64,000 bases of DNA from positions 1 to 64,000 of the forward strand of contig JAQVIJ010000004.1 in NCBI GenBank assembly GCA_028695735.1, in the 5' to 3' direction. The DNA is from Deltaproteobacteria bacterium (GTDB lineage Bacteria > Desulfobacterota > Dissulfuribacteria > Dissulfuribacterales > DYLC01). Positions 3,775 through 4,327 of the stretch are shown here, one piece after another (the stretch's first letter is position 1; the number at the start of each line of letters is the position of its first letter). Both the position numbers and the translations under genes were made by a program. The notes under the pieces are model-generated. The model was given only the letters and a program-made list of their open reading frames with translations. It searched no databases and was not told where the DNA came from.

Positions 3775-3873
3775 GTTCTGTTCCAACCCCCTTTTTTGCC
3801 CTTGTTTTTGTTTGACAGTGCAGCAAGCCTATGATAATTTTTAGAAAACCTGTAAGGTAGATAATAAATAATG

Positions 3874-4321
3874 TTAGCTGGACACCGGCATGATCCTAGA
3901 CATACGGACAAAACGCGTCTATGAGCCTCCCGATGCACGTGACGGTTTTCGTGTTCTTGTGGATCGCATCTGGCAGCGTGGAATGGCAAAGAAGCAGGTC
4001 CGAACGGACCTGTGGCTACGGGACGTAGCACCGAGCACGGCTTTGAGAAAGTGGTTTGCCCACGACCCGTCAAAGTGGGAAGAATTCAAGAAGCGCTACT
4101 TCGCAGAACTTGATAAAAATCCCGAAAGCGTGCACGTCCTTCTTGAAGCGGCGGCGAAAGGCACCTTGACGCTGTTGTTTTCAGCCCGCGATGCCGAACA
4201 TAACCAAGCGATCGCATTGAAGGAGTATTTACTATCGAAGGCGAGAAAACAAGCCAGCTAACCAGCGCTTGCACCTGACGTCACTCCGCTGCGCTTCGCG
4301 GCGCAGGTGAAGCGCGAGCCG
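3874..4321 (+). mobile_element. Integron-type gene cassette carrying a DUF488 gene
   Basis: A core-site sequence GTTAGCT at 3873-3879 precedes the gene start by only about 10 bases, and its exact complement AGCTAAC at 4256-4262 overlaps the gene's stop codon. This is followed by an attC-like imperfect palindrome ending in a second core site, GTTATGC, at 4321-4327. That the cassette's R'' site matches its own 5' junction rather than the downstream R' site is what integron recombination between G and TT would produce. No integrase gene or attI is in the window. Boundaries are inferred from recombination at G/TT. Confidence 0.7.
3890..4261 (+). CDS. DUF488 family protein (YeaO-like)
   Basis: 123 residues matching the DUF488/YeaO family throughout: TKRVYEPPDARDGFRVLVDRIW near the N-terminus, then DLWLRDVAPSTALRKWFAHDPSKW and a C-terminal GTLTLLFSARDAEHNQA. 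The length is normal, so the gene looks intact. The family has no well-established biochemical function. It sits in an isolated integron-like cassette: the ATG lies 10 bases after the cassette junction and the TAA overlaps the attC R'' site. The strand and position fit expression only from outside or from a weak cassette promoter. Confidence 0.88.
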   Translation: MILDIRTKRVYEPPDARDGFRVLVDRIWQRGMAKKQVRTDLWLRDVAPSTALRKWFAHDPSKWEEFKKRYFAELDKNPESVHVLLEAAAKGTLTLLFSARDAEHNQAIALKEYLLSKARKQAS

Positions 4322-4327
4322 TTATGC
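4256..4327 (+). other. attC recombination site (integron cassette)
   Basis: 72 bases: R'' AGCTAAC, L'' arm containing GCGCTTGCACCTG, a central imperfect hairpin around CTGCGCTTCGCGGCG, L' arm CAGGTGAAGCGC, R' GTTATGC. The arms pair except for one unpaired G (GCGCTT-G-CACCTG against CAGGTGAAGCGC), the extrahelical base that attC sites need for strand choice. Length and layout are typical of short attC sites. Confidence 0.75.

Follow-up and report, generated by a model that had tools for sequence, protein, structure and literature searches.

An ordinary integron has a single attI site next to intI, so that expression is restricted to the leading few cassettes of its one array. Class 1 integrons can be mobilised by flanking MITE-like structures. 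Cassettes bearing attC also occur in genomes without intI, where they are classed by IntegronFinder as CALIN or as single attC (PMC9024848). Single cassettes at scattered chromosomal sites have been described as attG insertions (Loot et al. 2024, as cited in PMC11023631 and PMC12901181), and in the Delta-attI-type cassettes of class 1 and class 2 integrons attI sequence is duplicated away from intI (PMC12901181).

The locus described here, in a 64-kb stretch of DNA (the window), resembles CALIN and single attC sites in that attC-bearing cassettes are found in a genome without detectable intI; however, several loci each open with a copy of an attI-like repeat, rather than forming one broken array. 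CALIN by the default of IntegronFinder 2 comprises at least two clustered attC sites without intI, whereas one attC reaching the model is present per locus here, and the DUF488 locus fits the single-attC class. It shares with attG insertions, as these are presented in the citing papers, the position of single cassettes at scattered chromosomal sites, but the DUF488 cassette and three others stand at copies of a conserved sequence of about 85 bp and not at unrelated sites. In Delta-attI-type cassettes a partial attI replaces attC downstream of the ORF within one array (PMC12901181), whereas the repeat described here lies upstream of cassettes and is spread over the chromosome. As in MITE-flanked class 1 integrons, the cassette lies between two MITE-like repeats, although neither intI nor a resistance gene accompanies it and the repeat family gives 177 BLAST matches in the 2.2-Mb genome; because the family is everywhere in the genome, the flanking may be coincidence. 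A single attC without integrase is already known; what is unusual here is that the attI-like site has multiplied. In the open-access papers searched, no description was found of a genome without a detectable integrase in which copies of an attI-like site carry different cassettes.

A DUF488 gene lies in an integron gene cassette

On the plus strand, the 5′ cassette junction GTTAGCT (3873-3879), read from the sequence, is followed by a single small ORF (3890-4261) encoding a DUF488 protein of 123 aa that belongs to the 'inactive N3' subclade (Pfam PF22752, E 1.2e-41; PF04343, E 1.2e-29) and by an attC site (4256-4327), the cassette proper running from T3874 to G4321. The attC is an inverted imperfect palindrome with R″/R′, L″/L′ and an extrahelical base. 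Its R″ is AGCTAAC (4256-4262) and its R′ is GTTATGC (4321-4327), and in the stem (4265-4277 and 4304-4315) GCGCTT (4265-4270) and CACCTG (4272-4277) are paired with AAGCGC (4310-4315) and CAGGTG (4304-4309), leaving G4271, on the R″ side, as the single extrahelical base. The ORF has the same orientation as attC and its stop codon TAA (4259-4261) falls within R″. Complementarity of R″ to R′ is just 4/7, whereas R″ is complementary to the 5′ junction at 7/7 positions, and at 8/8 when the next base is included (GTTAGCTG versus CAGCTAAC).

A covariance model, R1, was built from 18 attC sites adjoining the integron integrases of other phylum members, none of them from the window. The result showed that the attC scored 45.1 bits (E 3.9e-9) and was the sole match in 64 kb, and that the control, 828 kb from the surroundings of 80 unrelated DUF488 genes, gave no match. 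Since the DUF488 relatives at these 80 loci are not near attC, genes of the DUF488 family are not typically carried in cassettes. In three further genomes there are attC sites whose DNA is 79-91% identical to the attC of the window, among them an array in genome G008. Thermodynamic folding gave an unremarkable energy (z -1.0 for the bottom strand and -1.7 for the top strand), and Rfam gave no matching family. A z-score of about -1 would suit a chance palindrome beside a chromosomal gene, but this reading is already contradicted by the covariance hit together with the empty control; the identity to attC sites of other genomes and the exact junction complementarity also stand against it, and we consider it extremely improbable. 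The window at 3873-4327 is a bona fide integron gene cassette. The literature search gave no function for the DUF488 protein, and a search of solved structures gave no match.

The adjacent HicB-like gene belongs to a second cassette, of hicBA type, of which the 5′ part is present (4322-4549, plus strand). Positions 4332-4546 are 87% identical to a hicB-hicA unit of another genome (G083:C44), in a region with several attC matches, and that unit has an R″, GGCATAAC, to which GTTATGCC at 4321 in the window is exactly complementary. At about 4549 a MITE-like repeat (4550-5468, plus strand; terminal repeats AAAAGGACAGTCACATT...) truncates the hicBA cassette and contributes the final codons of the HicB-like ORF (4407-4577, plus strand).

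A first-pass annotation of this DNA had proposed a genuine cassette in which DUF488 is flanked by GTTAGCT and attC, R″ matches the cassette's own 5′ junction and not the downstream R′, a G is extrahelical in the stem and the stop codon overlaps R″; each of these elements was found where it had been placed. The covariance check that it advised gave, with our own phylum-trained model, a significant score, and the same gene plus its flanks was found at the DNA level in none of the 99 relatives searched. Its view of the HicB-like neighbour as a second cassette was likewise borne out.

The cassette follows one copy of a repeated attI-like sequence

The cassette is preceded by an attI-like repeat (3788-3875, plus strand) that ends in the crossover triplet GTT. 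Eight copies are present in this genome, namely six outside MITE-like repeats and two diverged copies inside MITE-like repeats of the window. The alignment showed that conservation extends from TTTTTTGCC via TTGAC[AG]GTG to AATAATGTT, where the homology ends. In the 85 bp before GTT, the six non-MITE copies are 70-92% identical, and after GTT the identity is at background level; as in an attI, the boundary lies at GTT, with constant sequence upstream and variable sequence downstream. Because no copy adjoins intI, the identity as attI rests on this junction logic and on motif likeness. The intI-adjoining regions of order-mates have a similar AT-rich sequence followed by GTTAG, and the likely attI sites beside intI at two of their loci (ATCTAATAAACAATATGTTAGCC at L139 and GATATTAAGAATGTTAGCC at L145) resemble the repeat described here (AGATAATAAATAATGTTAG). 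The core of attI2, AATAAAATGTTRRRY, is also like the end of the repeat (PMC12901181).

The repeat contains the conserved TTGAC[AG]GTG, with a candidate -35 element at 3812-3817, and GATAAT (3833-3838), at a spacing of 15. A strict promoter scan of the repeat found none; judged by the motif, TTGACA could belong to a promoter for the cassettes.

No homologue of the repeat was found in 45 order-mates. Neither the repeat nor the cassette DNA matched a plasmid record, and an exact-pattern search with the repeat found no viral contig. Three short matches (21-31 bp) in other members of the phylum were AT-rich and were taken as chance. In G005, an order-mate that has IntI as well as several loci with attC, the attI region next to intI was single-copy among the loci examined, which is a limited control, and multi-copy attI is therefore not general. 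In the same genome (L139, L164-L167), at least five contigs have attC sites, and several of these loci have long repeats in common.

Different cassettes follow several attI-like copies

In four of the six non-MITE copies, the end of the following gene or genes carries an R″ that is the exact 8-mer complement of the copy's own junction. In the window, an exact 8-mer complement lies 200-1300 bp downstream of 6 of 637 GTTR sites, and at this rate the chance of at least four matching R″ in six is about 1e-7. A detectable attC is kept at three of the four loaded copies. The window copy precedes DUF488 (attC 45 bits). The copy at C2:2133 precedes a DUF4136 lipoprotein gene (attC 35.5 bits) followed by a hicAB cassette; the R″ of this second cassette, CGCATAAC, matches its own GTTATGCG, but its attC is truncated. 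The copy at C8:29740 precedes a BrnT-type toxin gene with an attC of 47.6 bits at C8:30328. At the fourth copy (C8:189015, to 190290), a 23S-rRNA-IVP-like gene and another ORF are followed by R″ GGCATAAC, with the attC stem deleted; after this loss just a few bases separate R″ from a GTTA. Downstream of the copies at C8:178595 and C2:51770, neither a matching R″ nor an attC was detected, and the two MITE-borne copies have no cassette. The C8:178595 copy precedes a methyltransferase gene and a second ORF that by eye resembles a restriction partner.

A fifth cassette, of hicBA type (C9:13073-13654), has an attC of 88.9 bits at C9:13583, and its junction GTTATGCC matches its R″ GGCATAAC. It lies between gltX and a methyltransferase gene adjoining rpoC, no attI-like repeat precedes it, and it fits an attG-like insertion. 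This cassette could be taken to mean that the repeat upstream of the others is a mere dispersed promoter or MITE fragment that abuts cassettes, the cassettes themselves being at attG-like sites or remnants of one broken integron. Such an origin is also in line with the two copies inside MITE-like repeats, with the great abundance of that family (177 matches) and with the C8:29740 copy, which runs upstream into MITE-like sequence, whereas the other loaded copies begin abruptly at a T-rich 5′ end. However, the homology of the non-MITE copies ends at GTT, four of the six have an exactly matching R″, and a random repeat is not expected to end at the IntI crossover point, all of which makes this explanation unlikely.

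No integron integrase was found in the genome

The search of the genome, a draft of nine contigs that is 97.18% complete, showed no IntI match over the TIGR02249 cut-off. The integron-integrase family gave two weak matches only, each in two pieces that are split by 17-19 residues as against 51-54 model positions. In both, about 34 residues are missing from the interval of model positions 185-240, where the IntI-specific insertion lies, and for this reason the two were read as XerC/D-like. The search thus gave two Xer-like recombinases only and, with no intI found, no complete integron was detected. IntI above the cut-off is present in 107 of 297 genomes of the phylum, with eight in the same order among the matches listed, and attC matches occur in 34 of 46 genomes of the order.

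Since the draft is 97% complete, intI could sit in a gap. A complete integron in the cell, with intI on an unassembled part or on a plasmid and the scattered sites still active, would agree with the nine-contig assembly and with the wide occurrence of IntI in the order and phylum. Against it, neither IntI nor a fragment of it was found in the genome, and the cassettes truncated by repeats and the attC sites damaged at C2 and C8:189015 look like inactive remnants; we regard such a hidden, still active integron as unlikely, with an appreciable chance of being right.

The first-pass annotation had found no integrase at the locus and had advised a genome-wide search, which likewise gave no intI and located the further attC sites at C9:13583, C8:30328 and C2. 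Two of its statements did not stand: the cassette is not isolated, as the genome has at least four detectable attC sites and five cassette loci, and the setting is not unexpected, given the frequencies of attC and IntI in the order and phylum. The multi-copy attI-like 5′ flank had been missed.

Cassettes were probably inserted at a duplicated attI

In our judgement it is highly probable that an integrase placed the cassettes into an attI duplicated over the chromosome, with DUF488 and hicBA at one copy. Against this reading stand the copies without a detected cassette, the lack of intI beside any copy, the failure to find a homologue of the repeat in 45 order-mates and the unremarkable folding energy of the attC. 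An attI site would have been copied to several chromosomal places, and an integron integrase, since lost or acting in trans, would have put the DUF488 cassette and the adjacent hicBA cassette into one of the copies. On insertion, the G of the GTT in attI would have become linked to TTAGCT, the end that belongs to the cassette, which would explain why the junction complements the cassette's own R″. The hicBA cassette would afterwards have been cut off by the MITE-like repeat. The attI-like repeat would also be a possible source of a promoter. From this arrangement we infer a functional attI, transcription from the repeat and an earlier presence of IntI.

A wider reading, which we see as evenly poised between right and wrong, is that the integron is dispersed. 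A single attI, perhaps together with a promoter, would have been copied, possibly by MITE-like repeats, to at least six chromosomal places and loaded in trans at several of them with DUF488 and hicBA, DUF4136 lipoprotein and hicAB, BrnT-type toxin and 23S-IVP-like cassettes, so that many cassettes would stand first instead of queuing in a single array. If true, multiple attI-like copies could allow simultaneous expression of several first cassettes, and attI itself would be able to become a repeated element. As natural variants of a single attI-like sequence, the eight copies in this genome could be used for finding the bases that matter.

MITE-like repeats and other remnants near the cassette

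A MITE-like repeat with terminal inverted repeats of about 40 bp (3225-3774, plus strand) lies upstream of the attI-like repeat. The repeat that truncates the hicBA cassette contains a diverged attI-like copy at 4639-4726 (minus strand), and a third MITE-like copy (7671-8313, plus strand) contains another at 7762-7860 (minus strand). The ends of the MITE-like repeats give interrupted ORFs stop codons and C-terminal residues (KKDSHILE, KKGQSHS). A MITE-type terminal repeat (5799-5846) directly precedes a transposase C-terminal remnant (5876-6238; rve_3 integrase core, Pfam E 5e-8), and the transposase from which this remnant derives is a possible source of the MITE family. A fragment at 2924-3145 (minus strand) reads as a phage morphogenesis protein, with no Pfam match; it overlaps the end of a TolC-like gene and is possibly a prophage remnant.
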